Source of the DNA: a virus
Reading direction: 5' to 3' (one strand)
Length of the DNA stretch: 21,308 bases
IMG/VR virus record: IMGVR_UViG_3300044675_004111
Location: 1-21,308 of that record
The translations under genes were made by a program, and so were the position numbers. The notes beneath the pieces were generated by a model that worked only from the letters and a program-made list of their open reading frames with translations, was not told the origin of the DNA and did not search any database. This document shows, piece after piece, positions 7,506 through 21,013 of the stretch. How positions within the stretch are numbered: the stretch's first letter is position 1; each line of letters opens with the position of its first letter.

Positions 7506-7507
7506 TC

Positions 7508-10190: not shown

Positions 10191-10226
10191 AGATTTACTC
10201 CTCGTCTTCGTTACGGAACACCAGGA

Positions 10227-10876: not shown

Positions 10877-11220
10877 TTAGTCTCCGTGTATTCAGATGGT
10901 ATGTGGAACTCAAGCCAGCCAAGATAAGACTTAGCAAGAGTTAGTGGGACTAGTAGAGGCTTCTCTCTAGTTGCTTTCTCTGGTGTTAGAAAGGTTTCTA
11001 AGTCGCTAGGCTGTTTAGCAACAGGGCAATACATCCAAGACTCTGTTTCCTGAAGTGTTGCTAATGGAAAAGCAATAGGGTAGTGTGATTTTTCAGAGGT
11101 AAGTGTCTCTAAACGTCTGGCGTTAGGTCTGGACTTTACTTTTTTAGGGTTGAACCAGACTGCTACTACAAGGTCTTCTTCAGAGTATGTGCCAGAAGTG
11201 TTTTTATAGGTTCTAGACAT
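10873..11220 (-). CDS. Unknown protein in structural operon
   Basis: A 115-residue protein of unknown function, second gene of the leftward operon. The start ATG at 11220 overlaps the previous gene's last codons by eight bases, with AAGGCGA upstream. Composition is mixed, with a VVAVWFNPKKVKSRPNARRL segment near the N-terminus, a single Cys near the middle, and a hydrophobic WLEFHIPSEY near the C-terminus. No signal peptide, membrane segment or recognised domain is visible. Co-directional overlap on both sides shows it is part of the operon. Confidence 0.7.
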   Translation of the reverse strand: MSRTYKNTSGTYSEEDLVVAVWFNPKKVKSRPNARRLETLTSEKSHYPIAFPLATLQETESWMYCPVAKQPSDLETFLTPEKATREKPLLVPLTLAKSYLGWLEFHIPSEYTETK

Positions 11221-11713: not shown

Positions 11714-11738
11714 ACCCCTATCCTACAGGGTTTTTTAG

Positions 11739-11870
11739 ATGCCGTACAAGACTAAAGCAGCAAAATCATTGGACGACAAAGACGAATATATGAACCTTTC
11801 CATATTTTGGTTTTGGCCTGTGACAAGGCTCTGCATAGTATTAACACTTTTCCAAATCGTTTCCGGATAA
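11739..11870 (+). CDS. Possible 43-residue membrane mini-protein
   Basis: A short frame starting at ATG 11739, 25 bases from the divergent operon start. The first 18 residues are charged (MPYKTKAAKSLDDKDEYM), then one hydrophobic segment with aromatic residues (SIFWFWPV, then LCIVLTLFQIV). The topology looks protein-like, but the ribosome binding site is weak (CAGGG) and no promoter is clear upstream. It would also overlap the likely promoter of the leftward operon, so it may be spurious. Confidence 0.25.
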   Translation: MPYKTKAAKSLDDKDEYMNLSIFWFWPVTRLCIVLTLFQIVSG

Positions 11871-12216
11871 AAATAAACTACAGACAACTTTTTATTTTTT
11901 TCTTAGGTTCTGAAGTCTTAGGTAATCTTTTTTTATTATTTTATTTATTTATTTGGGCTATAAGACTTTTATTGAGGCGTTCTTGTCTCTAAAAACTTAC
12001 AAACAATTATTATTTATTTTATTTTCTAAACTTTCTCTAGTGTCTAGTGTTATCACTTGGTCATCTCTCCGGCTGACTAACTTACAAACAACTTGGCTAG
12101 TGTCTTAGACATAAGGGGGCTAAGTGTCAAGGCTTTTGATAACGATTAGATAACAAGGGGGCTAGGCTCTTGTCTAAAGGTGTGATACAAAACACTAACA
12201 AAGACTAGGACAATAC
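11871..12216. other. AT-rich intergenic control region with iterated short motifs
   Basis: No convincing gene. The left half is extremely AT-rich (runs such as TTTTTATTATTTTATTTATTT). The right half repeats short words: CTTACAAACAA at 11996 and 12081, CTAGTGTC near 12038 and 12097, and AAGGGGGCTA twice between 12110 and 12165. It lies between divergent operons, each of which includes a double-HTH gene. This could be a control region, operator cluster or replication origin; no initiator gene or classical iteron array proves an origin. Confidence 0.4.
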
Positions 12217-12245
12217 TTGACAATAGTCTAGGCGTGTTCTAGTGT
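12217..12245 (+). promoter_or_regulatory. Sigma70-type promoter for the 73-residue gene
   Basis: TTGACA, 17-base spacer, TAGTGT; about 45 bases upstream of the ATG at 12290. It shares the TAGnnT -10 form with the next four promoters. Confidence 0.65.
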
Positions 12246-12289
12246 TAGGTATGTAGTCAAAGGGGCTACACGAAAAGACAGGAAAAGAA

Positions 12290-12511
12290 ATGACACAACA
12301 CGGGGTAAGCATTACAACTGAAGGACATAACTACAACTTCGTAGTAGATACCACCGCACAGGTTAGAGACTTGCTACTCAACACCACCGCACCAATTACT
12401 GAGGTAATTGTTATGGAAGAAGGCTACGGCAAGGAAGCCCGTATGCTAAACGCTGAGGAAATCTTGGCTATTGTCCTCAACCACCCAAAGCCAGCCCTAT
12501 CTCTAGTCTAA
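12290..12511 (+). CDS. Small unknown protein, cassette 1
   Basis: A 73-residue soluble-looking protein, first of the rightward cassettes. ATG is preceded by AGGAAAAGAA. The N-terminal half alternates polar and hydrophobic residues (beta-like, TTEGHNYNFVVDTTAQ), followed by an acidic stretch (VMEEGYGKEARMLNAEE) and a helix ILAIVLNHP. No known domain recognised. It has its own promoter and its own intrinsic terminator 15 bases after the stop, so it is probably a monocistronic accessory or early gene. Confidence 0.7.
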   Translation: MTQHGVSITTEGHNYNFVVDTTAQVRDLLLNTTAPITEVIVMEEGYGKEARMLNAEEILAIVLNHPKPALSLV

Positions 12512-12525
12512 TAAACTAGGCAAGG

Positions 12526-12549
12526 AAGCCCCCGCAAGGGGGCTTTTTT
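12526..12549 (+). terminator. Intrinsic terminator after cassette 1
   Basis: AGCCCCC-GCAA-GGGGGCT hairpin followed by TTTTT, directly downstream of the 73-residue gene. Confidence 0.9.
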
Positions 12550-12587
12550 GTTGCCAAAAGTATGACCAGTCATCTGCCTTTTAGGGC

Positions 12588-12616
12588 TTGACAAGCGTGG
12601 AACAGTATCATAGTCT
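12588..12616 (+). promoter_or_regulatory. Promoter for the 52-residue membrane protein
   Basis: TTGACA, 17 bases beginning AGCGTGG, TAGTCT. A 7-bp hairpin (TAAGCAC/GTGCTTA, loop AGAGA) lies in the leader just after the -10. Confidence 0.75.
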
Positions 12617-12660
12617 TATCTCATAAGCACAGAGAGTGCTTACAGACAAGGGGAAATAAA

Positions 12661-12819
12661 ATGACAACAGCACTACTTCAGATTATCGCAGGCGCACTAC
12701 TTCTAAACACACCTCTCATCATCCTATGGATTATGGAAGCCCGCAAGGTGAGCAAGCCAAAGCGCAAGGCGTCCAAGCCTGAGAACTTCGCAGTAGAAAA
12801 CTTCTGGGCAACTAACTAA
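12661..12819 (+). CDS. 52-residue single-span membrane protein, cassette 2
   Basis: A short frame with ATG preceded by AAGGGGAAATAAA. Residues 4-25 form one hydrophobic segment (LLQIIAGALLLNTPLIILWIM), followed by a basic tail KVSKPKRKASKP and a C-terminal NFWATN. The basic flank predicts a cytoplasmic C-terminus. Own promoter, own terminator. Function unknown; small phage membrane proteins of this kind can be holin-like, anti-holin or superinfection-exclusion factors, but nothing in the sequence chooses between them. Confidence 0.7.
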   Translation: MTTALLQIIAGALLLNTPLIILWIMEARKVSKPKRKASKPENFAVENFWATN

Positions 12820-12829
12820 AACTTACAGA

Positions 12830-12855
12830 GAAGCCCCCCGCAAGGGGGGTTTTTC
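12830..12855 (+). terminator. Intrinsic terminator after cassette 2
   Basis: AAGCCCCCC-GCAA-GGGGGG hairpin followed by TTTTTCTTTT. Confidence 0.9.
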
Positions 12856-12895
12856 TTTTGCCCTAAAGATGTGATAGGAAACACACCCTAAAGAC

Positions 12896-12924
12896 TTGAC
12901 AAGCGTAAGACACTAGCATAGGCT
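12896..12924 (+). promoter_or_regulatory. Promoter for the 80-residue Cys protein
   Basis: TTGACA, 17 bases beginning AGCGTAAG, TAGGCT. The 20 bases before the -35 (ACACACCCTAAAGAC core) are nearly the same as those before the promoter at 13357, showing duplicated cassette boundaries. Confidence 0.75.
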
Positions 12925-12953
12925 TATCTTATAAGCACAAACAAGGGGGAAAG

Positions 12954-13196
12954 ATGAAAAACAAAAAGAAAGTAGTAGGACTTGGAAAGGTCTGCTATTC
13001 CTGCTCGGTAGAGATTATGAGCAACGAGGATTACACCGCACTAGTCCATAAACAAAAAGGCGCAGAGACTATGGCACTAGCGCACACAGACTGGACAGGT
13101 TGCCAAAAAGCCATAAATCGCCCAGAGAGCAGACTTGAATACCGCTTACAGGTATCAAGACAAAGGGAAAGCGAAGCCTCGCTAACCCTAGTCTAA
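12954..13196 (+). CDS. Small CxxC protein, cassette 3
   Basis: An 80-residue protein with ATG preceded by AAGGGGGAAAG. It opens with a Lys-rich segment, then VCYSCSVEIMSNEDYTALVH, where the CYSC pair resembles half of a zinc knuckle; a third Cys lies near residue 50 (WTGCQKA) with nearby His residues that could complete a site. The C-terminal third is charged and helical. No family recognised. Own promoter and terminator. Confidence 0.7.
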   Translation: MKNKKKVVGLGKVCYSCSVEIMSNEDYTALVHKQKGAETMALAHTDWTGCQKAINRPESRLEYRLQVSRQRESEASLTLV

Positions 13197-13202
13197 AAAC
13201 TA

Positions 13203-13227
13203 AAAGCCCCCGAAAGGGGGTTTTTTT
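13203..13227 (+). terminator. Intrinsic terminator after cassette 3
   Basis: AAGCCCCC-GAAA-GGGGG hairpin followed by seven T. Confidence 0.9.
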
Positions 13228-13230
13228 CTG

Positions 13231-13292
13231 GCGAAGGTAGCCAAAAAGTAAAAATCTGGCTAACCGGTTCTACTTCTACAAACAACTTTCGC
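13231..13292. repeat. Boundary element 1 (AAAAAGTAAAAA plus CTACAAACAACTT)
   Basis: Lies between the terminator of cassette 3 and the promoter of cassette 4. GCGAA/TTCGC arms enclose GGTAGCC/GGCTAACC, a stem with one bulge whose loop is the 12-mer at 13243-13254. CTACAAACAACTT follows at 13276-13288. On the minus strand the order is AAGTTGTTTGTAG, then TTTTTACTTTTTG. Confidence 0.6.
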
Positions 13293-13356
13293 AGACTATC
13301 CGCACACAGCGTTCTAAACCCTAGACTAAATGTGTCCTAAAACACACCCTAAAGAC

Positions 13357-13385
13357 TTGACAAGCGTAAGGCTATGCCATAGTAT
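13357..13385 (+). promoter_or_regulatory. Promoter for the 57-residue basic protein
   Basis: TTGACA, 17 bases beginning AGCGTAAG, TAGTAT. Confidence 0.75.
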
Positions 13386-13414
13386 TATCACTAAGACAAG
13401 GGAAAGGAAAGAAA

Positions 13415-13588
13415 ATGCGAGGACTACCTGATAGCGCAATAGTAGGAACTTACAAACGCCTACACCGCAAGCCAAAGCGTAAAGCACCTATTGTTAGTTA
13501 TGACGAGCAAGCAGAAATAATTGGTAAATTATTCTCTTGGGTCGTAGTAAAAGCAATAAAAGCAACGCACAAAGTAATTTATAAATAA
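13415..13588 (+). CDS. 57-residue basic protein, cassette 4
   Basis: A short frame with ATG preceded by AAGGGAAAGGAAAG. The N-terminal half is strongly basic (TYKRLHRKPKRKAP), followed by an acidic patch (DEQAE) and an amphipathic C-terminal helix (IIGKLFSWVVVKAIKA). The charge suggests nucleic-acid or membrane-surface binding, which is inference. Unlike the other cassettes there is no terminator: the next promoter -35 starts four bases after the stop, so transcription likely continues into the DUF3846 gene. Confidence 0.65.
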   Translation: MRGLPDSAIVGTYKRLHRKPKRKAPIVSYDEQAEIIGKLFSWVVVKAIKATHKVIYK

Positions 13589-13591
13589 AAC

Positions 13592-13621
13592 TTGACAAGG
13601 GCTATTCCTATGGTCTAGCCT
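13592..13621 (+). promoter_or_regulatory. Promoter for DUF3846 gene
   Basis: TTGACA, 18-base spacer, TAGCCT, immediately after the previous stop codon. Confidence 0.65.
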
Positions 13622-13649
13622 TACACTTATCAAACAGAAAGGAAATAAA

Positions 13650-13985
13650 ATGCTTGCTATCAAACTAAATGCTGAAGGACAAGCAGAGGAAGTCCAACTA
13701 GCAGATGAAGGTTCTCAACTAGAGCAACTTCAATCTGCCGTAGGCGGACTTGTTCAAGCGATAGACTTCACCGCAGACTTGACAATCTGGGTAAATGAAG
13801 AAGGAAAACTTTATGGGTTGCCAATCAACCCTATGGCAACTTTCTTATGGGAAAAGTATTTCGGACTTACTGACTTTATTTGTGGAGATGTAATCTTCAC
13901 AGGTGGCACAGGTGAGGAAGGCGAAACGCTAGGACTCAATGATGAAACCGCGAAACAACTTCGTGAGTTTCTCCGTATTGACTAA
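13650..13985 (+). CDS. DUF3846-family protein
   Basis: A 111-residue acidic protein matching the recalled DUF3846 pattern: a central VGGLVQAIDF, then TIWVNEEGKLYGLPINPMAT, and FICGDVIFTG near residue 85. DUF3846 proteins occur widely on phages and actinobacterial plasmids; function is unknown. ATG is preceded by AAAGGAAATAAA. The next gene starts 17 bases downstream, so the two probably share a transcript ending at the terminator at 14689. Confidence 0.8.
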   Translation: MLAIKLNAEGQAEEVQLADEGSQLEQLQSAVGGLVQAIDFTADLTIWVNEEGKLYGLPINPMATFLWEKYFGLTDFICGDVIFTGGTGEEGETLGLNDETAKQLREFLRID

Positions 13986-14002
13986 CTCAAACAAAGGACA
14001 AA

Positions 14003-14668
14003 ATGACAACCGCAATCAACTTCCGCACTAACCCCGGCCAACTAGAAAAGGCTCACGGGGCACGCTACGCAATTAGAACAGAAAGACCTACTTTCTATCG
14101 CAGGGCAGGGCAGAACAAAATAGCAAAACTACAACTACCTGAAAATGTGGTTGTGGCTTTTTCTATGCTGACAAGCCCACTAGATAAAAAAATGAGAAAC
14201 GATTATGTAGTGGCGTTAGTAGGTGCTGGCTGGACACAAGCGTCCGTAGCGAGAGCGTCTAAATTATCTCCGCAGATGATTAGAGTAATTCTAAACTCTC
14301 ACACTAGCACAGGCGTTCCGCCAACGCTATTTGTTCCACCCGTTCCAAAGCACGCACCAAAGGTAGGGCAATCTCGTTATGTAATGCCTACACCTGAACT
14401 ACTGGCAAGGCTGAAGGAACTTCAACCCTACGCACAGCAGGTAAGAGCAAACAGCCCTCGCTTTCGCGCTGAGGCTGAGGAATACACCTACCTACTCAAT
14501 CAAGCACACAACGAACAAAAAGTTACTCTCTATCGCTTGGCAAAGTTATTAGGAGTAACTACTTCGGCACTTGCTTTCCGCTTGGTTCGGTATGGATACC
14601 GCACAACTACACTAGGAAAATCTTCTTCCTACAAGCCCGTTCTACACAAAAACAGAAGCACAGTCTAA
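14003..14668 (+). CDS. Double helix-turn-helix protein, rightward copy
   Basis: A 221-residue basic protein with AAAGGAC just before the ATG. Residues 66-98 form an HTH (YVVALVGAGWTQASVARASK, then a recognition-like QMIRVIL). A Pro-rich linker (VPPTLFVPPVPKHAPK) leads to a helical block at 131-170 (PELLARLKELQPYAQQ) and a second HTH at about 174-197 (VTLYRLAKLLGVTTSALAFR). The layout and several positions (AGW after the first helix, LKxL, a GVTxxAxAxRL end) match the 166-residue protein at 11213-11713, so I infer paralogy. Likely DNA-binding, perhaps acting on the control region between them. It ends just before a strong terminator. Confidence 0.75.
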   Translation: MTTAINFRTNPGQLEKAHGARYAIRTERPTFYRRAGQNKIAKLQLPENVVVAFSMLTSPLDKKMRNDYVVALVGAGWTQASVARASKLSPQMIRVILNSHTSTGVPPTLFVPPVPKHAPKVGQSRYVMPTPELLARLKELQPYAQQVRANSPRFRAEAEEYTYLLNQAHNEQKVTLYRLAKLLGVTTSALAFRLVRYGYRTTTLGKSSSYKPVLHKNRSTV

Positions 14669-14688
14669 GTTCTGGTTCTGGAATAAAG

Positions 14689-14724
14689 AAAGCCCCCTAG
14701 TTTTTGCTAGGGGGTTTCTTTTTT
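14689..14724 (+). terminator. Intrinsic terminator ending the rightward block
   Basis: AAAGCCCCCTAG and CTAGGGGGTTT arms around TTTTTG, followed by CTTTTTT. Confidence 0.9.
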
Positions 14725-14764
14725 GACGCCTTATGCCGTCCTTCCAAACTCCACACAAGGACGC

Positions 14765-14819
14765 AAAAAGTAAAAAACAACGCCCTGCAAGTCAAGTTTA
14801 AGTGACGAGCAAGGCGTTG
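14765..14819 (-). terminator. Terminator of lysis pair, using a repeat copy as its T tract
   Basis: On the minus strand CAACGCC and GGCGTTG arms enclose a 28-base loop and are followed by TTTTTTACTTTTTGC, which is the conserved 12-mer (14765-14776). It sits 14 bases after the peptidoglycan-binding-like gene. The loop is long for a classical terminator. Confidence 0.55.
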
Positions 14820-14832
14820 ATTTTGTTAATAC

Positions 14833-15312
14833 TTAGTTAGTGACTTCTACTGAAGTCCCTTCGAACAAACAAGAGATTAGTTTCTCGTCCTGAGCATTGA
14901 CTTTTTCTACCGAAGTCTTAGCAAACTGAGCGAGAGACTTCATAGTCCCTGCACTTAGCCAACCAAACTTGTCACTACCCGCATCGAGAAAGCCGAGTTC
15001 GACAAGACGGAATTGCACCAAACCAACTGATGCAGAATTTCTGGATTTCGACTCGAAAACAAGGTTCGACAACGAAACAACTTTTTTAGATGCAGCAAGT
15101 TTTGACGGGGCTGGTGCATCATTTTTACTTTTTGCCTCTTCGACAGGTGCAGCAACAGCAACAACTTCTTCAACAACTTCTGCTTCTAGAGTTTCTGGCT
15201 CTGTCCACACGGGTTCGGGTTGCGCTGGTGGGGCAAATGTAGGGACAACTTCCGCACTCTCAAGCACGGGTGTTGGCTCTGAGACCTCAGGTTCTTTGGC
15301 GTTCTCTATCAA
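14833..15312 (-). CDS. Peptidoglycan-binding-like protein paired with transglycosylase
   Basis: I place the start at a TTG (15312) overlapping the upstream stop as TTGA, because GAAGGAG lies eight bases before it; a frame from 15345 would ignore that signal. The product is 159 residues. The first half is acidic and rich in Pro, Val and Glu (low complexity, linker-like). Near residues 95-138, VGLVQFRLVELGFLDAG through GTMKSLAQFAK resembles the three-helix peptidoglycan-binding domain (PF01471-like pattern). There is no signal peptide. With the transglycosylase it may act in host lysis or as a separate wall-targeting subunit. It carries one copy of the 12-mer within its coding sequence (15122-15133). 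Confidence 0.7.
   Translation of the reverse strand: MIENAKEPEVSEPTPVLESAEVVPTFAPPAQPEPVWTEPETLEAEVVEEVVAVAAPVEEAKSKNDAPAPSKLAASKKVVSLSNLVFESKSRNSASVGLVQFRLVELGFLDAGSDKFGWLSAGTMKSLAQFAKTSVEKVNAQDEKLISCLFEGTSVEVTN
15122..15133 (-). repeat. 12-mer copy inside the peptidoglycan-binding-like gene
   Basis: Minus strand reads GCAAAAAGTAAAAAT, coding for AKSKN. Confidence 0.85.
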
Positions 15313-15941
15313 GGGGTTACTCCTTCGGGAAACTTCTTGAGCCAAGATTCATAGCGTTCTTGGTCTACACCATTATACCCGCTACCAACTTTCCAAGCCT
15401 CCCATTTTTCGCCACCATTACTCATGTGATAAGCAATCTCAGCATTGACTACTGGGTTGAATAGTTCCGCATTTGATTTGAGGTCAAACTTTTCTCGGCG
15501 GTCTACTCCTAGTCCGCCAATCATATTAATCTGGAAGATTCCGTATGAAGAGTCGCCTGTTCTTGTATTGCCATTGAAGGCAATAGGGCGACCATTAGAC
15601 TCCTTCTTCACAACAGCCCAAGCGACCTTTAGGGCTTTGCCCTCAAACCCAACGGCATAGAGCAGTTGAGCGAGTTCTTCGTCCGTGAAGGTGGTTCGCT
15701 GGTCAGCAAACCTCTGGAGTTGTAGAGCCTTGATTTTTTCCTTATGGGCGACGATTTCAGCCTCGATAAGTTGTTCGTAGGTTTTCTTTTCTTGCTGTTG
15801 CTGCTGCACTTCGACAACAGTTTTTACTTTTTGTTCGTCTGCGTTGGACGCTTGAACATAGGTAGAGAAAGTCGAAATAACTCCAACCGAAAGCAATACG
15901 CTCAAGATTTGTTCGACAACTCTGCTCTTAGTTTTCTGCAT
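15309..15941 (-). CDS. Secreted lytic transglycosylase / lysozyme-like protein
   Basis: A 210-residue protein. I choose ATG 15941 because AAAGGA lies six bases upstream; an ATG at 15965 has a weaker site. Residues 1-33 form a signal peptide or anchor (basic MQKTKSR, then VVEQILSVLLSVGVIS). A Gln/Lys-rich coiled coil follows (about 40-75). The catalytic region has AWAVVKKESNGRP with the probable catalytic Glu114, then TGDSSYGIFQINM and HMSNGGEKWEAW, the GLYF-type lysozyme-like fold used to cleave glycan strands. It is followed by a TTGA-coupled wall-binding-like partner and preceded by a structured leader. One copy of the 12-mer lies in the coiled-coil region (15821-15832). It could be an endolysin or a virion-associated wall hydrolase. 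Confidence 0.85.
   Translation of the reverse strand: MQKTKSRVVEQILSVLLSVGVISTFSTYVQASNADEQKVKTVVEVQQQQQEKKTYEQLIEAEIVAHKEKIKALQLQRFADQRTTFTDEELAQLLYAVGFEGKALKVAWAVVKKESNGRPIAFNGNTRTGDSSYGIFQINMIGGLGVDRREKFDLKSNAELFNPVVNAEIAYHMSNGGEKWEAWKVGSGYNGVDQERYESWLKKFPEGVTP
15821..15832 (-). repeat. 12-mer copy inside the transglycosylase gene
   Basis: Minus strand reads ACAAAAAGTAAAAACT, coding for QKVKT, a different reading frame from the copies at 15122 and 16731. Confidence 0.85.
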
Positions 15942-15965
15942 TGATTTTCCTTTGTTTGGGGACAT

Positions 15966-16100
15966 GGACTCTGCGTTGTATAAACCGCAGTTGGGTTGCT
16001 GACTAAGCCAACCGAGCCACCCTCATTGGGGAGACAGGTATTACTTACCTTTCCTAAGTTTGTCGTTAGGTCGTATGTCGTTCATAGGTAATACTCTATC
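15966..16100 (-). promoter_or_regulatory. Structured leader upstream of the transglycosylase
   Basis: A 135-base interval between the zinc-ribbon gene and the transglycosylase. On the minus strand it can form a long-range GTATTAC/GTAATAC pairing, a GGTTGGCT-TAGTC-AGCAACC hairpin (one bulge), and a CTGCG/CGCAG hairpin ending 17 bases before the chosen start region. A 14-codon frame starting at ATG 16084 with a stop near 16042 lies inside. I could not match it confidently to a known riboswitch class. Confidence 0.45.
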
Positions 16101-16125
16101 ACAGGAAAGTCAGGAAGGTAGCCTT

Positions 16126-16242
16126 TTACAGGCACTTTCCGCAACAAGCCCCGTGGTTGTAGTCGTTTTCATACAGGGAAAACTGGCTACCGCACTTCCA
16201 ACAGGCTATGTAAATGATTTGTTTTTTCTTGGTTTTTGTCAT
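16126..16242 (-). CDS. 38-residue zinc-ribbon-like protein
   Basis: A very short frame with AAAGGGGAAG five bases before the ATG and a perfect-spacing promoter upstream (16264-16292). It is Lys-rich at the start (MTKTKKKQIIYIA), followed by CWKCG and, 17 residues later, CCGKC, giving a minimal two-knuckle Cys4 arrangement. It stands alone ahead of the transglycosylase leader, with no terminator between them, so read-through is possible. The promoter, ribosome site and Cys pattern together make it credible despite its size. Confidence 0.7.
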   Translation of the reverse strand: MTKTKKKQIIYIACWKCGSQFSLYENDYNHGACCGKCL

Positions 16243-16263
16243 TTTCTTCCCCTTTCATAGACA

Positions 16264-16292
16264 ACAATACAATAGTCCAAGTTCTTTGTCAA
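16264..16292 (-). promoter_or_regulatory. Promoter for zinc-ribbon gene and possibly the lysis pair
   Basis: TTGACA (16287-16292), 17 bases, TATTGT (16264-16269), 22 bases before the ATG. Confidence 0.75.
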
Positions 16293-16299
16293 GCGACAC

Positions 16300-16362
16300 G
16301 CCAAAAGAATAGAGACCCTCTGACGGGGGAAGGTTTGTGTCAGAGAGCCTCTAGTCCAACTT
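16300..16362 (-). ncRNA. Candidate short hairpin RNA or operon terminator
   Basis: On the minus strand GAGGCTCTCTGAC and GTCAGAGGGTCTC (16339-16351, 16312-16324) pair over 13 positions including wobbles, around a 14-base loop ACAAACCTTCCCCC, followed by TATTCTTTT. A possible promoter at 16364-16392 would start transcription just upstream. It may simply end the five-gene operon. Confidence 0.4.
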
Positions 16363-16363
16363 C

Positions 16364-16392
16364 ATTATGTCATACTATTGACAGGAAATCAA
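16364..16392 (-). promoter_or_regulatory. Possible promoter before the 13-bp hairpin
   Basis: TTGATT (16387-16392), 17 bases, CATAAT (16364-16369), located after the stop of the 51-residue gene with no gene following for 120 bases. Confidence 0.4.
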
Positions 16393-16395
16393 GTC

Positions 16396-16551
16396 CTAAG
16401 GTTTCTCCCTTATGGACAGAACAGCCGAAGTAATCGCCACAGCGCCGAGGGCTAAGGACACATCTGAGTCTCCCCAGATAGCCATTACAACAGCGAGCGC
16501 AGATGCCACGCTGGCAACTACCGCAGACCAAACTACATTGAGATTATTCAT
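16396..16551 (-). CDS. 51-residue membrane protein (holin candidate)
   Basis: ATG at 16551 lies within the last codons of the HTH gene (eight-base overlap), with GCAGGAA just upstream. Residues 6-26 (VVWSAVVASVASALAVVMAIW) and 32-46 (SLALGAVAITSAVLS) are hydrophobic segments separated by an acidic turn GDSD; the tail REKP is short and charged. Two spans in about 50 residues is compatible with a small holin, and it lies upstream of the transglycosylase, though in a separate unit. The function is inferred from topology and context only. Confidence 0.65.
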   Translation of the reverse strand: MNNLNVVWSAVVASVASALAVVMAIWGDSDVSLALGAVAITSAVLSIREKP

Positions 16552-16747
16552 TTCCTGCCTTCTTTCTTTTAGGGCTAGTTCTACCTCTGAGACGGGCTGA
16601 AGGGTCTCTCAAAACAACTCCACTACTACGAATCGCTTTCCTCGCTGTCCTATAACAGACACCAAGTTCTTCAGCCACATCATCTATGGCAAGACCAGAG
16701 TTGTATAACTTTGCAGCATCAATCTCTATCTTTTTACTTTTTGCCAC
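16544..16747 (-). CDS. Small helix-turn-helix protein
   Basis: A 67-residue protein with a GTG start at 16747. Residues 9-36 give a clear resolvase-like HTH: DAAKLYNSGLAIDDVAEELG followed by VCYRTARKAIR. The C-terminus is very basic (ARLRGRTSPKRKKAG). This compact fold is frequent in actinophage genomes as a DNA-binding regulator or recombination-directionality factor; no integrase is visible, so regulation is more likely. The conserved 12-mer overlaps its first codons (AKSKK), so a protein binding that site could affect this gene's expression. Confidence 0.75.
   Translation of the reverse strand: MAKSKKIEIDAAKLYNSGLAIDDVAEELGVCYRTARKAIRSSGVVLRDPSARLRGRTSPKRKKAGNE
16731..16742 (-). repeat. 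12-mer copy at the start of the small HTH gene
   Basis: Minus strand GGCAAAAAGTAAAAAG begins within codon 2 of the HTH gene. Confidence 0.85.
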
Positions 16748-16754
16748 TTCTGAA

Positions 16755-16931
16755 TTACGCCTTTCGTTTCTTCTTTTTTATCGCTTTGTAGATGAAATAA
16801 GAAAGCACACCAACTATCAACGCAGGTGTATAGACAGCAACGCTGAAGAAGTTTGATGATACTTCTATCCACTCAAACTGACAGGCAAGACCGCAATCCA
16901 TTGGGTCAAGCATTACATTAGTTTCTTCCAT
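16755..16931 (-). CDS. 58-residue single-span membrane protein
   Basis: ATG at 16931 overlaps the previous stop as TAATG, with GGGAGGA six bases upstream. A polar N-terminus with two Cys (MDCGLACQFEW) is followed by a hydrophobic span at about 29-48 (FFSVAVYTPALIVGVLSYFI) and a strongly basic tail (YKAIKKKKRKA). The topology predicts N-out, C-in. Two external Cys could form a disulfide. Function unknown; it belongs to the tightly packed operon of tiny genes. Confidence 0.7.
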   Translation of the reverse strand: MEETNVMLDPMDCGLACQFEWIEVSSNFFSVAVYTPALIVGVLSYFIYKAIKKKKRKA

Positions 16932-17098
16932 TAGATTCCTCCCTTCACCTTCTCGTAGTGAAGTTCAGTTAGTTCTTTACGAAGTCTGTTGTTCTCCCGT
17001 ATCAACTTACCTTGCGCTCTGATACCAACAACCATAACAAAGCATGAACCCGCAAGCGCAATAATTATTGCGAACATTGTTCCATTATCAAGCAACAT
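16931..17098 (-). CDS. 55-residue membrane protein with coiled-coil tail
   Basis: I choose ATG 17098, which overlaps the end of the Cys-rich gene and has AGGAAGGAAG about eight bases upstream; an in-frame extension to 17188 would duplicate the coding region of that gene. Residues 7-26 (TMFAIIIALAGSCFVMVVGI) span the membrane. Residues 30-48 (GKLIRENNRLRKELTELHY) form a likely coiled coil, a layout like Rz/spanin-type or holin-associated small proteins, though no lipobox or paired partner is clear. Confidence 0.7.
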   Translation of the reverse strand: MLLDNGTMFAIIIALAGSCFVMVVGIRAQGKLIRENNRLRKELTELHYEKVKGGI

Positions 17099-17246
17099 TT
17101 GATTCTTCCTTCCTGTTAGATAAAGCAATCGCATTGGCGCAGGTGTAGCACCACTTCTCTGTTTCAATACCACCAAGCAAGAACGCATCTACGCCTGAAT
17201 AAACTAACTCCGTGCTTTCGCAAGTAGCATTTATACATTTCTTCAT
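17088..17246 (-). CDS. 52-residue Cys4 protein
   Basis: ATG at 17246, preceded by AGGGA about ten bases upstream and by a 12-mer copy directly abutting the start. Cysteines at residues 4, 9, 33 and 36 (CINATC and CYTC) suggest one zinc site joining the two halves. Between them is a hydrophobic loop (VYSGVDAFLLGGIE). The N-terminal KKC resembles short actinobacterial and phage zinc-ribbon proteins. It is translated just ahead of the coiled-coil membrane protein with an 11-base overlap. Confidence 0.7.
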   Translation of the reverse strand: MKKCINATCESTELVYSGVDAFLLGGIETEKWCYTCANAIALSNRKEESNVA

Positions 17247-17257
17247 TTTTACTTTTT
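17246..17257 (-). repeat. 12-mer copy abutting the Cys4 gene start
   Basis: Minus strand GGGAAAAAGTAAAAATG; the last A is the first base of the ATG. The only copy lacking the leading C. Confidence 0.85.
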
Positions 17258-17259
17258 CC

Positions 17260-17511
17260 CTATCTTTCTTCTTTGTCTAGTTTGATAAACACTTCATTTG
17301 TTTTTATTTGAGGCATTGGTAGTGCTTCCATAAAGGCTCTTGCTTCGGCACTTGTCTTTAGTTCAGACCATTTCTCAAACTGCTCATCACTCATAAAAGC
17401 AAACTTTAGTAAAAACTCCGCACGAGGTGTGCTAAGTCTTTCTCTGCTTTTGATAAAAGAGGCTTCTCTTTTTGCTAAAGCATTTGCTTTTTTAGTTCTC
17501 CAACCTGACAT
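17260..17511 (-). CDS. 83-residue basic helical protein
   Basis: ATG at 17511 preceded by AAGGGGGTAG. The N-terminal half is basic and helical (WRTKKANALAKREASFIKSR), the middle has FLLKFAFMSDEQFEKWSEL, and the end is charged (FIKLDKEER). No Cys, no membrane segment. No known domain recognised. It is in line with the preceding small secreted protein and the following Cys4 gene, so it is probably in the same transcript from the promoter at 17734. Confidence 0.65.
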   Translation of the reverse strand: MSGWRTKKANALAKREASFIKSRERLSTPRAEFLLKFAFMSDEQFEKWSELKTSAEARAFMEALPMPQIKTNEVFIKLDKEER

Positions 17512-17532
17512 TATTACTACCCCCTTTAGTTA

Positions 17533-17688
17533 TTATGGATACAACAGGTCTAAACAAAATTGATTCATTTGTTCTGTCGGCACTTTACACATCTCAGGTG
17601 TAGTAGCGTCAAGAGCCCAAGCGAACAAAGCAAGCAAAATAAGTCCAACGGCAATTCTGCGTCTAATAAACTTTGCTTCTGTTTTCAT
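17533..17688 (-). CDS. 51-residue membrane-anchored or secreted protein
   Basis: A short frame with AAGGGAGAAAGAC before the ATG at 17688 and a good promoter upstream. A basic start (MKTEAKFIRRR) is followed by a hydrophobic segment (IAVGLILLALFAWAL), then a polar exterior with two Cys (MCKVPTEQMNQFC) that could form a disulfide. It is either a signal peptide with a tiny secreted product or a single-span anchor. First gene of the operon running down to 16396. Function unknown. Confidence 0.7.
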   Translation of the reverse strand: MKTEAKFIRRRIAVGLILLALFAWALDATTPEMCKVPTEQMNQFCLDLLYP

Positions 17689-17707
17689 TTTGTCTTTCTC
17701 CCTTTTC

Positions 17708-17728
17708 TATTGACTTTCCTAGTCAATA
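17708..17728 (-). promoter_or_regulatory. 8-bp inverted repeat just downstream of promoter
   Basis: TATTGACT-TTCCT-AGTCAATA, placed about six bases after the -10; could be an operator or a leader hairpin. Confidence 0.55.
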
Positions 17729-17733
17729 CCCTA

Positions 17734-17762
17734 AGATTACAGCCTTCCTGACCTTTTGTCAA
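17734..17762 (-). promoter_or_regulatory. Promoter of the small membrane/Cys/HTH operon
   Basis: TTGACA (17757-17762), 17 bases containing GGTCAGGAAGG, TAATCT (17734-17739). A second GTCAGGAAGG lies just upstream of the -35. Confidence 0.75.
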
Positions 17763-17785
17763 ACCTTCCTGACTTTCGGCGTGTC

Positions 17786-18319
17786 TTAGTTTCTCCACGC
17801 CGAAACATCAACTTCACTCAGCCACTTCTCAAAGCGACCATTGAACAAGGCGTGCTTGCTTCTCTTAGCCCGTATCAAGTCAATCGCTTCTTGTGGCGTG
17901 TAGCCCTCACGAATAAGGACTAGAGCCATAATTAGACCACTTCGGTTCATACCTGCTTGGCAACGAATAAGGACACGCTGTCCTCGCTTCCACTCTGCGT
18001 GAGCCATACGAACAATTCCTTGTAAATCATTTGGGTCAAAGTCTGCCATGTCGCTGTCATAAAATCCGAAACGGATTTCCTTGACAAACCAATCAACAGG
18101 ATTAGCCCAAGCGTAGGCTGTAATCACAAAATCAAAGTTCTTTTTTGTAATTGCTGGCGTTGCTAGTTGGTCATAAATGTCGTCATCATCAGTTCCACCC
18201 TGCCATAAGCCGGGCAATAACTCAGACCACAATTCTTTTGGATAGTCAATCGTATAAGAGCGTGGTGCTATTTTTGTTTCTAGTAGTTCTAGTGCTTCAT
18301 CTTGTGGAGAAGTGTTCAT
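17786..18319 (-). CDS. Dual-specificity/tyrosine phosphatase-like protein
   Basis: A 177-residue protein with ATG preceded by AAAGGGGAAATAC. The active-site loop VLIRCQAGMNRSG (Cys120, Arg126, Ser127) fits the Cx5R(S/T) signature of cysteine phosphatases; a DSDMAD region (88-93) could supply the general acid. The usual His before the catalytic Cys is Arg119. The N-terminal LLPGLWQGGTDDDD resembles the entry strand of dual-specificity phosphatases, and the C-terminal helices complete a minimal domain. Such genes occur in actinophages; the substrate here is unknown. It has its own promoter. Confidence 0.8.
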   Translation of the reverse strand: MNTSPQDEALELLETKIAPRSYTIDYPKELWSELLPGLWQGGTDDDDIYDQLATPAITKKNFDFVITAYAWANPVDWFVKEIRFGFYDSDMADFDPNDLQGIVRMAHAEWKRGQRVLIRCQAGMNRSGLIMALVLIREGYTPQEAIDLIRAKRSKHALFNGRFEKWLSEVDVSAWRN

Positions 18320-18342
18320 TTGTATTTCCCCTTTCTATGGAG

Positions 18343-18372
18343 AGTTTATCATACCTTCCTGACATTTGTCAA
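18343..18372 (-). promoter_or_regulatory. Promoter of the phosphatase gene
   Basis: TTGACA (18367-18372), 18 bases beginning AATGTCAGGAAGGT, TAAACT (18343-18348). TGACA and TGTCA form an inverted repeat at the -35. Confidence 0.7.
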
Positions 18373-18378
18373 ATCGGC

Positions 18379-18612
18379 TTATGAAACTTTTTTCTTGCGC
18401 TTACGCACTACTTTCTTTTTCAAGTCATACTTTTGCTTGGCATACCAGCCAAGACCAAAGAACAGAACAAGACCTAGAGCAGAGGCGTCAATCATTATCA
18501 TAATGAACAGAACCGCAATAACTACTAAAGCGATTTTCTTATAGATAATCTTCTCTACCTTCGTTGTTCGGTATGCGTATTTGAAATCACCGAATAGCCA
18601 ATCTCTAAACAT
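18379..18612 (-). CDS. 77-residue two-span membrane protein
   Basis: I prefer ATG 18612, with GGGGGAA five bases upstream; the in-frame extension to 18660 would run through the promoter. A polar N-terminus (MFRDWLFGDFKYAYRTT) precedes a hydrophobic stretch at residues 28-42 (ALVVIAVLFIMIMID) and another at 43-52 (ALGLVLFFGLGW), then a very basic tail (LKKKVVRKRKKK). It could be one long hairpin or two short spans with cytoplasmic ends. Monocistronic, with the same promoter type as the phosphatase downstream. Function unknown. Confidence 0.7.
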   Translation of the reverse strand: MFRDWLFGDFKYAYRTTKVEKIIYKKIALVVIAVLFIMIMIDASALGLVLFFGLGWYAKQKYDLKKKVVRKRKKKVS

Positions 18613-18637
18613 AAGTTCCCCCTTCTTAGGTATCCAC

Positions 18638-18667
18638 ATACTATCAAACCTTCCTGACATTTGTCAA
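18638..18667 (-). promoter_or_regulatory. Promoter of the 77-residue membrane protein
   Basis: TTGACA (18662-18667), 18 bases beginning AATGTCAGGAAGGT, TAGTAT (18638-18643); near twin of the phosphatase promoter. Confidence 0.75.
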
Positions 18668-18670
18668 GTC

Positions 18671-18778
18671 CCTTCAGCAAACAACCCAAGTTGTTTTTAC
18701 TTGCAGCGGATCTGAAGGAGAGTTTTTACTTTTTGCTAATGCACCACCGGGCCCTCGATTTGACCAAGTTGTTTATAG
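18671..18778. repeat. Boundary element 2 (inverted repeats plus 12-mer)
   Basis: Between a terminator and a promoter. CCTTCAG/CTGAAGG (18671-18677, 18712-18718) encloses the palindrome AAACAAC-CCAA-GTTGTTT. The 12-mer complement TTTTTACTTTTTGC starts at 18723 and runs on as TAATGCAC. AAGTTGTTTATAG closes it at 18766-18778, able to pair with AAACAAC. Same architecture as the element at 20912-21013. Confidence 0.6.
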
Positions 18779-18786
18779 TTGCCAAA

Positions 18787-18813
18787 GAAAAAACCCCCGC
18801 ATCAACGGGGGCT
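18787..18813 (-). terminator. Intrinsic terminator of the 74-residue gene
   Basis: Minus strand AGCCCCCG-TTGATG-CGGGGG followed by TTTTTT. Confidence 0.9.
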
Positions 18814-18833
18814 TCTCTAAAATCTGTTGGGCT

Positions 18834-19058
18834 TTAGTTCTTGACCAGAACCGCTTTATCAAACTCTTTGGCACACTCTCTGCCTATGTTCCAGAACCCC
18901 TGTGAGTCTGCTTCGCTGGCTGGGTGTAGCACCGCACCACCTGTGGATACATTTACTAGGTAAGCGTTCTTACCTGTCTTGCGTCCGCATTGAATACAGT
19001 AGTTCTCGTAGTTGCCATTAGGCTCTACCCAATTTACAAAATCTCCGAAAGAAATCAT
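18834..19058 (-). CDS. 74-residue CxxC protein
   Basis: ATG at 19058 preceded by GGGGGTG. CIQCGRKTG at residues 21-29 is a zinc-knuckle half; the second half may be a single Cys in IGRECAKEF near residue 62, giving an incomplete three-Cys set with a possible His in VLHPAS. The pattern resembles small phage proteins that bind zinc and contact host enzymes, but no family is recognised. Own promoter and own terminator. Confidence 0.75.
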   Translation of the reverse strand: MISFGDFVNWVEPNGNYENYCIQCGRKTGKNAYLVNVSTGGAVLHPASEADSQGFWNIGRECAKEFDKAVLVKN

Positions 19059-19090
19059 TTATTTCACCCCCTTCCTTCTTTGATAAGTTA

Positions 19091-19119
19091 ATCTTACTAC
19101 ATCTCTAAACAAAAGTCAA
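19091..19119 (-). promoter_or_regulatory. Promoter of the 74-residue gene
   Basis: TTGACT (19114-19119), 17 bases, TAAGAT (19091-19096), directly after the stop of the 55-residue acidic protein. Confidence 0.7.
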
Positions 19120-19126
19120 ATACCTT

Positions 19127-19294
19127 TTATTCACCCCCACCCAAACCTAAGACTTCATCTAGCCAAACTTCCGTGTTGAGCCTAAAGGCTTCGTGTTCCA
19201 TAGCGTCTAGGTCAGGTGTGTCCATTACTAGCACTAACTCATCTTCTGGCTCGTATTGCTTTCTTGCCTTTCTTGTTTGTTTCAGTTTTAGCAT
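19127..19294 (-). CDS. 55-residue acidic mini-protein
   Basis: ATG at 19294 with AGGAGGAAG immediately upstream. A basic N-terminus (LKLKQTRKARKQYEP) turns sharply acidic (EDELVLVMDTPDLDAMEHEAF), ending WLDEVLGLGGGE. The acidic helix WLDEVLG is echoed in the 30-residue protein encoded next to it (LWDLLDEVEKD). Such small acidic proteins in phages can be DNA mimics or enzyme inhibitors; this is inference. Its leader contains a hairpin shared with the neighbouring gene. Confidence 0.6.
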   Translation of the reverse strand: MLKLKQTRKARKQYEPEDELVLVMDTPDLDAMEHEAFRLNTEVWLDEVLGLGGGE

Positions 19295-19324
19295 TTCTTC
19301 CTCCTCTTGGGATTATTTATCCCT

Positions 19325-19350
19325 CTACTTATTAACGACGATTAAGTAAG
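19325..19350 (-). promoter_or_regulatory. Leader hairpin, copy 1
   Basis: Minus strand CTTACTTA-ATCGTCGTTAA-TAAGTAG followed by AGGGA and the AGGAGG ribosome site of the 55-residue gene. Stem sequence differs from copy 2 while the loop core ATCGTC is kept. Confidence 0.55.
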
Positions 19351-19367
19351 CCAAAAGTCAATGACTC

Positions 19368-19460
19368 TTAGTCTTTCTCCACTTCATCTAGCAAATCCCA
19401 CAGGACAGGTTCTAAGGCTTTACTTAGTTCGTCTAGTTTCTGTTGTAGTGTCTTTTCCAT
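19368..19460 (-). CDS. 30-residue acidic mini-protein
   Basis: A very short frame with AAAGGAGGAAAG nine bases before the ATG at 19460, one of the strongest ribosome sites in the window. The product, beginning MEKTLQQKLDELSKALEP and ending LWDLLDEVEKD, is a single amphipathic acidic helix. Preceded by the hairpin at 19490-19514, followed 73 bases later by the 55-residue gene. The size makes it uncertain, but the shared upstream arrangement supports translation. Confidence 0.5.
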   Translation of the reverse strand: MEKTLQQKLDELSKALEPVLWDLLDEVEKD

Positions 19461-19489
19461 TGAGGCTTTCCTCCTTTCTGTTTTTCCCT

Positions 19490-19514
19490 CTACCTCTTAT
19501 GACGATTGAGGTAG
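19490..19514 (-). promoter_or_regulatory. Leader hairpin, copy 2
   Basis: Minus strand CTACCTC-AATCGTCATAA-GAGGTAG, a perfect 7-bp stem, followed by AGGGA and AGGAGG as in copy 1. Confidence 0.6.
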
Positions 19515-19615
19515 GCATTTCTCAATGGATTATTTTTGTGACCTATTTCACAGGCAAAATGTCCGTTTTGTCTTCACATCATTTGGGTCAGGGTTTCTGG
19601 GATTTTAGACTTCTC

Positions 19616-19692
19616 AAATTGTTTGTAGTGTGCAAATGCACTGGGCGCTATTGCAGGTTTTTACTTTTTGCCACAGCGTCCCACTGCAAATT
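19616..19692. repeat. Boundary element 3 (AAATTGTTTGTAG plus 12-mer)
   Basis: AAATTGTTTGTAG at 19616, then TGGGCGCT and AGCGTCCCA arms (one bulge) around a loop holding TTTTTACTTTTTG (19658-19669). TGTAGTG can pair with CACTGCA outside. Lies after the terminator of the 105-residue gene. Confidence 0.55.
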
Positions 19693-19722
19693 AAATAAAA
19701 ATACCCCGCACTAGGCGGGGCA
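19692..19722 (-). terminator. Intrinsic terminator of the 20415-19737 operon
   Basis: Minus strand TGCCCCGC-CTAGT-GCGGGG followed by TATTTTTATTT. Confidence 0.85.
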
Positions 19723-19736
19723 TTTCTAATTGTTTG

Positions 19737-20054
19737 TTAGTCGTCTTCAGCAAAATCCCCTTGACCAATTAGGGTTTCGAATCCAGCGTTAGGGTTTTCG
19801 TGATTAGTGCTAACCGCTTCAATAAATCTAAGCCCGCAAGAATCTTCATACCACTCTTGCAGTGTCGCAAGCATTACATCAGGTGTGGCATCTTCTTTAG
19901 TAATAAGTGGGTCGTAGCCATAAGTTCTCATTAGTTCTACCTGTTCATTGTCCATAAGCAGATAAATCTTGTGGCAAGTATCAAAGGCAATAGCCTTAGC
20001 CTCGCTAACTCTTTCTTTTACCAAAGTATCAAATACTTCTGTTAGTGTGCTCAT
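19737..20054 (-). CDS. 105-residue acidic protein, unknown
   Basis: ATG at 20054 in a TAATG overlap with the gene before it. Mostly helical and acidic: VFDTLVKERVSEAKAIAFD, then KIYLLMDNEQVELMRTYGY, MLATLQEWYEDSCG, ending in a disordered acidic tail (GQGDFAEDD). Two Cys are far apart. No family recognised. Last gene of a three-gene operon ending in a strong terminator. Confidence 0.7.
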   Translation of the reverse strand: MSTLTEVFDTLVKERVSEAKAIAFDTCHKIYLLMDNEQVELMRTYGYDPLITKEDATPDVMLATLQEWYEDSCGLRFIEAVSTNHENPNAGFETLIGQGDFAEDD

Positions 20055-20287
20055 TACCTATCCAATCTAAGTATTCTTACAAGTTCGCTAGCAGTTATTT
20101 CCCAACCAGCATCTGTCTTTACGGCAGTAGCAGGGTGAGGCACTATGTCGGCAGGTAATACGACTACCGCATCATAGTTTTCTTCTTGATAAAACTCCCA
20201 AGCCTTGATAGCAGGTTCTGCATAGTCAAGTGGTAGTGGTGGATAAAAGTTTCCACGCAAGTGATAACTCATTGAGATAGTGTTCAT
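20054..20287 (-). CDS. 77-residue unknown protein
   Basis: ATG at 20287 in a TAATG overlap with the Cys4 gene. The start is aromatic and Pro-rich (YHLRGNFYPPLPLDYAEP), followed by a helix (AIKAWEFYQEENYD), a beta strand AVVVLPADIV, and WEITASELVRILRL. It may be a small alpha/beta domain. No known motif. Middle gene of the operon. Confidence 0.65.
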   Translation of the reverse strand: MNTISMSYHLRGNFYPPLPLDYAEPAIKAWEFYQEENYDAVVVLPADIVPHPATAVKTDAGWEITASELVRILRLDR

Positions 20288-20415
20288 TACGCTACCTCAC
20301 AATCGTGTCCATACCCAATTTCATTGGGTGTAAGTGCTTTCTCGCACTCACCGCAAATAGGGACAACCTTGCCACTCGCATAGAGTGCTAGGTGCTTTAG
20401 AATCATGTCGGACAT
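20287..20415 (-). CDS. 42-residue Cys3 zinc-knuckle-like protein
   Basis: A short frame with AGGGGG eight bases before ATG 20415 and a good promoter. An N-terminal helix (MILKHLALYASGK) is followed by VPICGECEKALTP, then GYGHDCEVA. CxxC plus a His and Cys near the end (HDC) could form a CCHC-type site. It starts a three-gene operon by TAATG coupling. Confidence 0.65.
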   Translation of the reverse strand: MSDMILKHLALYASGKVVPICGECEKALTPNEIGYGHDCEVA

Positions 20416-20447
20416 TTACTTACCCCCTGTAAGTTGTTGTTGTAGCA

Positions 20448-20476
20448 AGTGTAACACTTTACCAAAGTAAAGTCAA
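20448..20476 (-). promoter_or_regulatory. Promoter of the 20415-19737 operon
   Basis: TTGACT (20471-20476), 17 bases, TACACT (20448-20453). The spacer contains an inverted repeat CTTTAC/GTAAAG that could be an operator. Confidence 0.75.
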
Positions 20477-20479
20477 GTA

Positions 20480-20710
20480 TTATTTCTTATTCTTTTTTGA
20501 GTCTTGAAACTTTTTTTCGCAGGTATCGCTAAAGCAAACATTATCTTTGTCGGTGTTGTAAATAGAAAGTTTCTTTTCGCAGATAACGCAGAAACGAATC
20601 TTTGTGTTTATTTTTGTTGGTGTTCTACCCGGCCCCGCAATACCACGACCCGCGTAATAAGTTGGGCGAAGATAAACTCTGCCAAACTCGTCAAACTCTA
20701 CTGAATCCAT
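20480..20710 (-). CDS. 76-residue Cys4 zinc-binding-like protein
   Basis: ATG at 20710 preceded by AAAGGGGGAAAA. The N-terminus (MDSVEFDEFGRVYLRPTYYA) is mixed, then a Gly-rich turn GRGIAGPGRTP, then RFCVICEKKLS and, 11 residues later, VCFSDTCEKKFQ: a typical four-Cys treble-clef or zinc-ribbon finger, followed by a Lys-rich tail. It could bind nucleic acid or a host protein. It lies behind an unusual structured 5' leader and its own promoter. Confidence 0.8.
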   Translation of the reverse strand: MDSVEFDEFGRVYLRPTYYAGRGIAGPGRTPTKINTKIRFCVICEKKLSIYNTDKDNVCFSDTCEKKFQDSKKNKK

Positions 20711-20726
20711 TTTTCCCCCTTTTAGG

Positions 20727-20803
20727 TTCGGTAGGGAGTCGTATTGTTTCCGCCCCTTGCAAGTTATAGGCGTTCAGGTGACCAGCGACTTCCCCCTACC
20801 GAA
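20727..20803 (-). promoter_or_regulatory. Structured 5' leader closed by a 10-bp stem
   Basis: Minus strand TTCGGTAGGG (20794-20803) and CCCTACCGAA (20727-20736) pair perfectly. Inside, AGTCG pairs with CGACT next to the first stem, leaving a GGA bulge, and CGCC pairs with GGCG around a TATAACTTGCAAGG loop. The stem begins near the predicted transcription start and ends about 16 bases before the ATG. Not matched to a known riboswitch or ribozyme class. Confidence 0.6.
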
Positions 20804-20810
20804 TAACTGA

Positions 20811-20839
20811 AGGATAGCATTTTAGGATAGGCAAGTCAA
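20811..20839 (-). promoter_or_regulatory. Promoter of the 76-residue Cys4 gene
   Basis: TTGACT (20834-20839), 17 bases, TATCCT (20811-20816). Confidence 0.75.
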
Positions 20840-20911
20840 GTAGTGTCGCAAATTATTTTTACAAGGGCTAACGCAAATCGTTTCATAGGTTGTTCAACCA
20901 GGTATTAACGA

Positions 20912-21013
20912 CTACCAACAATTCCAGAAGGTCACCAGCAGCGGCAGCAGTGCATCAGCAAAAAGTAAAAATCTACGGCACGCCGGTCCTCACAGCACAG
21001 AAGTTGTTTGTAG
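20912..21013. repeat. Boundary element 4 (imperfect terminal inverted repeat plus 12-mer)
   Basis: CTACCAACAATT (20912-20923) and AGTTGTTTGTAG (21002-21013) can pair at 11 of 12 positions, one of them a wobble. The interior carries the 12-mer (20960-20971) in a TGCATCAGCAAAAAG context that, reversed, matches the GCTAATGCAC context of the element at 18671. A GGTTG-TT-CAACC palindrome lies just outside at about 20888. This is the only copy opposed to local transcription. Confidence 0.6.

Follow-up and report, generated by a model that had tools for sequence, protein, structure and literature searches.

A polar, highly conserved 12-letter word along the early genes of large uncultured actinobacterial viruses: a candidate operator system

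Polar repeated words have been reported several times in actinophages (stoperators, start-associated sequences and a motif of cluster EC), and a mechanism is known for the stoperators alone. Cluster A mycobacteriophages have L5-type stoperators, asymmetric short sites that number more than 20 per genome, occupy promoter regions and the short gaps between genes, mostly point one way relative to transcription, and differ in sequence from lineage to lineage (PMC9283540, PMC6550527); the sites vary in the middle (PMC9283540). Such systems belong to temperate phages with an integrase or parABS; their sites vary along with the repressor, which halts RNA polymerase where it binds. Start-associated sequences (SAS) and their extended counterparts (ESAS) are found in cluster K mycobacteriophages and cluster EF Microbacterium phages (PMC3203893, PMC7302621), and an 18-bp repeated motif of unknown function has been described in the cluster EC Microbacterium phage Quhwah (PMC7302621). 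Here we consider a 12-mer, AAAAAGTAAAAA, called the core below, that is repeated in the IMG/VR record IMGVR_UViG_3300044675_004111. The window is the whole of this stretch, 21,308 bases with 43% G+C.

Judging from its portal protein, the window comes from a relative of large actinophages. The portal gene at 8421–10190 belongs to phrog_776 and shares 73% identity with Actinomycetia phage DSL-LC01 (OQ999401.1), itself assembled from a metagenome (PMC10611076), and 57–61% with Microbacterium phages Pumpernickel and Zooman. Since the window is only a fragment, the longer records of relatives were used for counting: a portal protein search gathered 80 loci, and the 12-mer was counted in 30 of the records behind them. 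The clade is a group of large uncultured viruses of Actinobacteria with about 8–28 scattered copies of one exact 12-letter word, oriented along their early genes.

Copy number, confinement and orientation of the core

Nine copies of the core start at 13243, 14765, 15122, 15821, 16731, 17246, 18723, 19658 and 20960, at the very positions listed in an earlier note made from the letters of this DNA, whose other counts for the window were equally accurate. Chance would give far fewer than one copy (mean 0.06 and maximum 1 in dinucleotide shuffles, 0.03 in another shuffle run), the usual leading C is present in eight copies, with G at 17246, and the first 13 kb hold none, the next-best matches (two mismatches) occurring only at 8391 and 11889. 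GC starts seven of the nine copies.

Beyond the window, the 12-mer is kept in 19 of the 30 portal relatives, with a single match overall for its reversed control, and in all 14 further records reached by a composite-pattern search. Records with this form of the core (type A) have it as their top-enriched 12-mer in every case analysed, and the long ones carry 15–28 exact copies each against 0.02–0.1 expected. Among records without any copy, some are fragments of the structural region and others have a different core type. Genes were called by ourselves, and records partly overlap (G019 with G020, G027 with G028), so that site counts are not independent; counts are deduplicated only where marked. 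The core is sharp: six records hold 120 exact copies and about 41 one-mismatch neighbours over all 36 variants. The full site reads RG(C/T)AAAAAGTAAAAA, with R at −3 in 167, G at −2 in 147 and C/T at −1 in 152 of 178 unique sites. In the longest records the cores fill the early, small-gene region only: 14 of 15 copies in the 133-kb G031 fall within 1837–19990 and one at 132,554, the other 112 kb being empty, and G019 and G028 show the same confinement to one region.

Among 193 sites, 120 are intergenic and co-directional and 27 intergenic and opposed; 40 lie within genes, every one of them co-directional, and 6 are of other kinds. About 79% are thus intergenic, although about 63–92% of these sequences are called coding. 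The earlier note had also proposed that the word is polar, seven of eight non-convergent window copies reading with local transcription; this holds, the exception being the opposed copy at 20960, and polarity extends across genomes, with 160 co-directional against 27 opposed among 187 tandem or in-gene sites. Operons that are reversed have their cores reversed as well, in 17 of 17 cases (Fisher p = 1e-12, ignoring shared ancestry), hence orientation tracks transcription and not genome direction, and a genome-direction signal (replication, packaging, Chi-like) is ruled out.

Overlap with a stop codon (TAG at −4 to −2) or with a start codon (AAAAATG) is common, and at about 35 co-directional sites an ATG, in some cases internal, overlaps or abuts the core. 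Other cores lie directly 3' of a terminator hairpin and 60–140 bp ahead of a TTGAC box, and −35-like boxes are enriched 60–140 bp 3' of cores. A called start lies within 25 bp of no more than about 38 of 112 intergenic co-directional sites.

Composite sites, coding constraint and lineage types

About half of the sites are composite, as a second element, E (AAGTTGTT, extended to AAGTTGTTTGTAg.T and AAGTTGTTTGTAG-like), stands some 36–57 bp from the core on one or both sides. Of 179 deduplicated sites, 89 lack E altogether and 36 are flanked by it on both sides; E density is 8.9 per kb around cores against a background of 0.51 per kb. Upstream E elements are oriented with the core in a ratio of 37:8, and of 14:0 where the core opposes the gene; they thus follow the core even against the gene, which makes the composite a unit with its own polarity. 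On the downstream side E is found in either orientation, and at no fewer than 18 sites the composite unit as a whole runs against transcription. Cores and E elements of the window are as follows.

13242–13254, plus strand: core CAAAAAGTAAAAA, co-directional, between a terminator and the TTGACA promoter of a plus-strand operon
13276–13288, minus strand: E element CTACAAACAACTT, 33 bp past the core at 13243
14764–14776, plus strand: core at a convergent junction; orthologous copies in 5 relatives adjoin a leader hairpin
15076–15083, minus strand: E element AAGTTGTT, downstream of the core at 15122
15122–15134, minus strand: core in the peptidoglycan-binding protein gene (KSKN), conserved in 33 distinct orthologous sequences
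15160–15167, minus strand: E element AAGTTGTT, upstream of the core at 15122; second copy at 15172–15179
15768–15775, plus strand: E element (AAGTTGTT on the plus strand), near the core at 15821
15821–15833, minus strand: core in a lysozyme-like (SLT_3) gene, frame QKVKT, kept in close relatives only
16731–16743, minus strand: core at codons 2–6 of a 67-amino-acid helix-turn-helix (HTH) gene (MAKSKK)
17246–17257, minus strand: core overlapping an ATG (GGGAAAAAGTAAAAATG), between a Shine-Dalgarno (SD)-like sequence and the start codon
18688–18695, plus strand: E element, promoter side of the core at 18723
18723–18735, minus strand: core of a composite site, between a terminator and the promoter at 18667–18638
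18766–18773, plus strand: E element, terminator side of the core at 18723
19617–19628, plus strand: E variant AATTGTTTGTAG, near the core at 19658
19658–19670, minus strand: core past the terminator hairpin at 19728–19696
20959–20971, plus strand: core opposed to the flanking genes
21001–21013, plus strand: E element AAGTTGTTTGTAG, 41 bp past the core at 20960

The three in-gene copies are read in the frames given by the earlier note, as AKSKN (15122), MAKSKK (16731) and QKVKT (15821), and its suggestion that nucleic acid rather than peptide is conserved agrees with the codons. In the peptidoglycan-binding gene neither the core nor its reading frame changes across the 33 orthologues, whose protein identity ranges from 37 to 100%. 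AAA AGT AAA is frozen there; elsewhere the same genes use AAG and AAA for lysine at 139:115, and AGT for only 78 of 424 serines. Such frozen codons indicate selection on the DNA.

The core itself comes in lineage-specific types that are mutually exclusive: type-A records have no GGGGTAAAAA, type-B records have 8–13 copies of it and no type-A core, and L032 has 12 copies of type C, [CG]GATAAAAA, and neither A nor B. In the type-B record L057, 8 copies of GGGGTAAAAA stand at gene junctions, all forward, and its early stretch has no E elements. In G029 and G030 the 12-mer is absent and GGGGTAAAAATT is present, flanked by the same E elements. The right-hand TAAAAA is common to all types and the left half varies; one protein domain may read each half. 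Different types also occupy equivalent places. The in-gene site of the peptidoglycan-binding gene is AAAAAGTAAAAA in type-A records and GGGGTAAAAAA, with an upstream E, in the type-B L237, and the junction ahead of an HslV-like gene has an A core in 9 of 10 type-A orthologues, B in L057 and C in L032. Over all B and C sites, a table of site orthology gives Fisher p = 0.045, the table being too small to be strong. The occurrence of type A or type B at the same codons of one gene makes specificity switching and the matching of site and protein directly testable. The cultured relatives Pumpernickel and Zooman have no comparable word in their early region.

DSL-LC01 (L221) has no core either. Between its positions 24794 and 43304, GATTCTAAAGATGTTATAATAGAATC occurs 16 times as an extended −10 box within a palindrome; some copies have matching changes on both palindrome sides (AGATCT), and each stands shortly before a repeated SD word, ACGACGAAAGGACAA.

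Core doublets 31–38 bp apart recur at one conserved place (G008 20952/20990, G019 27662/27695, G028 98965/98996, G025 50161/50192), followed by a TTGACAAA promoter and, in some records, by a very short leader. They were considered as a marker of a repressor gene, and the gene 3' of the conserved doublet is not recognisable as one.

Three further features of the window may be mentioned. The minus-strand promoters at 18667–18638, 18372–18343 and 17762–17734 form a family with a conserved spacer, TTGACAaatGTCAGGAAGGTttGATAgT (TTGACAAAGTGCAGGAAGGT in L032 and L058), which may be another operator. Three 50-bp promoter-like repeats on the plus strand (TTGACAAGCGTAAG..CATAGTATTATC), at 12571–12620, 12879–12928 and 13340–13389, are 68–100% alike and stand ahead of small genes. 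A 2501-amino-acid frame on the minus strand (3–7505), open at the window edge, holds a stretch that by eye looks like a DnaQ-like exonuclease, VFFDFETTGVDPEDG.

Readings of the core and a candidate binder

We tentatively read the core as an asymmetric operator that is bound by a phage-encoded protein and controls early transcription in this clade. The reading builds on transcription-tied polarity, sharpness, composite anatomy, constraint on DNA, lineage types and confinement to one region, all found at the level of sequence; protein binding, phage encoding, a transcriptional effect and its negative sign are what we infer from them. A phage-encoded, sequence-specific protein would most probably bind the core in its DNA form, the core standing by itself at gene junctions and being joined by flanking E at transcription-unit boundaries, and would control transcription of the early region in a polar fashion. 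Most plausibly, elongation and read-through would be reduced at junctions, and initiation would also be affected at the TTGACA promoters just 3' of composite sites; the core may stop, start or insulate transcription.

Which protein could bind it? Three genes in the window encode HTH proteins (11213–11713, 14003–14668 and 16544–16747), two of them being paralogues.

11213–11713, minus strand: 166-amino-acid two-HTH protein, candidate binder that could be a packaging protein; the sole universal HTH gene found
14003–14668, plus strand: 221-amino-acid two-HTH paralogue, missing from part of the core-bearing phages

The 11213–11713 product is a modest candidate. As required binders, its paralogue is ruled out by its absence from core-bearing G027, G025, L034 and L051, and the 67-amino-acid protein of 16544–16747 by its absence from G018, which has 17 cores. 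AlphaFold models of the two-HTH proteins predict two helical HTH domains and a linker (predicted local distance difference test scores 83.5 and 75.6), an overall layout shared with the two-domain L5-type repressor (PMC9283540). They have no significant fold match, and no L5-type repressor appeared among the PDB sequence or fold matches shown, other genes not all having been tested. In the first HTH of the 11213–11713 protein, IA.S and PKST in type A stand against IG.S and PKTT in types B and C (three discriminating positions), and the second HTH is unchanged; these residues track core type, but are confounded with phylogeny. This two-HTH family (11213–11713, 14003–14668, L324:6321-6908) is represented by up to three or more paralogues in a single phage.

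The phages themselves look virulent. Neither a tyrosine integrase (PF00589) nor ParB (PF02195) was found in 11 records, several of which are fragments, the large serine integrase family PF07508 not being searched. One small serine recombinase (an open frame of about 222–252 amino acids) is present in each of G019, G030, G031, G032, G033 and DSL-LC01, and BACPHLIP called DSL-LC01 temperate (PMC10611076).

Several observations weigh against an operator of this kind. An elongation block would meet little transcription at the many composite sites that fall between a terminator and the promoter after it, and stoperators as reported are less sharp than the core (compare PMC9283540). No binder of the core has been identified: discriminating positions make up 10 of 166 in the 11213–11713 protein, a share like that of other proteins, so that the match between its first HTH and core type is suggestive only, and in Pumpernickel and Zooman the gene at the equivalent place sits among terminase genes, which makes a packaging role equally possible. 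The virulent look leaves no obvious lysogenic use.

A more elaborate form of the operator reading, which we regard as rather doubtful, is a polar composite system, so far unknown, in which one protein would read the lineage-specific core and a second the conserved E. The resulting nucleoprotein would programme early transcription in a clade of virulent large phages, and core specificity would switch from lineage to lineage in the manner of immunity types, in phages that appear not to be temperate.

The orientation of the core with transcription could also mean that it acts in RNA, as a AAAAAGUAAAAA mark in early transcripts through which a phage RNA-binding protein controls translation, processing or antitermination. 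The ATGs that overlap or abut cores, some of them internal, and the cores that directly follow terminators would suit such a mark, which we nevertheless consider improbable: composite sites sit between terminator and promoter, the downstream E elements and the inverted composite units do not keep to the sense of the transcript, and neither RNA structure nor an Rfam family was found. A structured RNA is ruled out (mean z −0.14 to −0.37). A polar, sharp word at gene junctions might instead be an early or middle promoter element read by a phage RNA polymerase or a sigma-like factor, and the N-terminal HTH of one two-HTH paralogue does score over the Sigma70_r4 Pfam cut-off, the family's weak fold matches (not significant) being mostly to sigma chains. 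This seems slightly less probable again. Beyond the core, its three leading bases and the immediate flank, no position at a fixed distance exceeds 0.14 bit in the 178 unique sites, so the core is not part of a two-block promoter, and a MotA-like or sigma promoter with fixed spacing is ruled out. Many cores abut a start codon, which would place a downstream start site inside the gene; ordinary TTGACA promoters occur 50–140 bp 3' in the same regions, and no single-subunit RNA polymerase was found, in a search that lacked a ringing control.

Tuning of translation starts, as proposed for the SAS/ESAS of cluster K and EF phages, would account for a short, asymmetric, highly conserved word near many start codons with a second linked element (PMC3203893, PMC7302621), but only a minority of sites are close to a called start, those inside genes and between terminator and promoter are not start-associated, and the core does not resemble the ribosome-binding site that SAS overlaps; we think it a quite improbable explanation. 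Least probable of all, in our view, is a recombination or cassette-boundary word that promotes small-gene exchange or serves the small serine recombinase. The location at gene borders of a mosaic region and the single such recombinase per near-complete genome fit it, but one in-gene copy and its E elements have been retained in 33 orthologous sequences, core types change in concert across the genome, and core-free DSL-LC01 has the recombinase too. A host element is ruled out, as the composite pattern gave 16 isolated, chance-like matches in unrelated bacterial taxa (genome_contigs), none actinobacterial.

Comparison with described actinophage words

The earlier note had likened the word to L5-type stoperators while allowing for an unrelated analogue, and the likeness holds up as a functional analogy; membership of the stoperator family is not supported. 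Both systems have many asymmetric sites (15–28 per long record here), orientation with transcription, a location in short gaps or promoter regions and lineage variants. Here, in contrast, the sites keep to the early region, hardly vary, occur within genes as well and in about half of cases are flanked by E, a feature not reported for stoperators; the usual lysogeny genes (tyrosine integrase, ParB) and any protein resembling the L5 repressor went undetected.

With SAS/ESAS the core shares an asymmetric, highly conserved 13-bp word, mostly in one orientation, and a second, more variable element at about half of sites. SAS, however, lies at the ribosome-binding site directly ahead of starts, whereas most cores keep a distance of over 25 bp from any called start; ESAS, an inverted repeat, adjoins SAS on its upstream side, whereas E is a single element about 36–57 bp away on one or both sides; and it is ESAS that varies between cluster K subclusters, whereas here the core varies. 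The Quhwah motif is likewise asymmetric, with 12 copies in the same orientation in small intergenic gaps of virulent phages, but it is fixed 21–30 bp before start codons, has no reported flanking elements or in-gene copies, and is unrelated in sequence.

A literature search for the exact core words showed no phage context among the titles listed (10 of 18). Should the phages be virulent, lysogeny could not be what a stoperator-like system is for; it would have to act in lytic timing or in competition between co-infecting phages. Our best reading is that the core system, which on paper works like stoperators and SAS/ESAS, belongs to neither and takes a form not described before.

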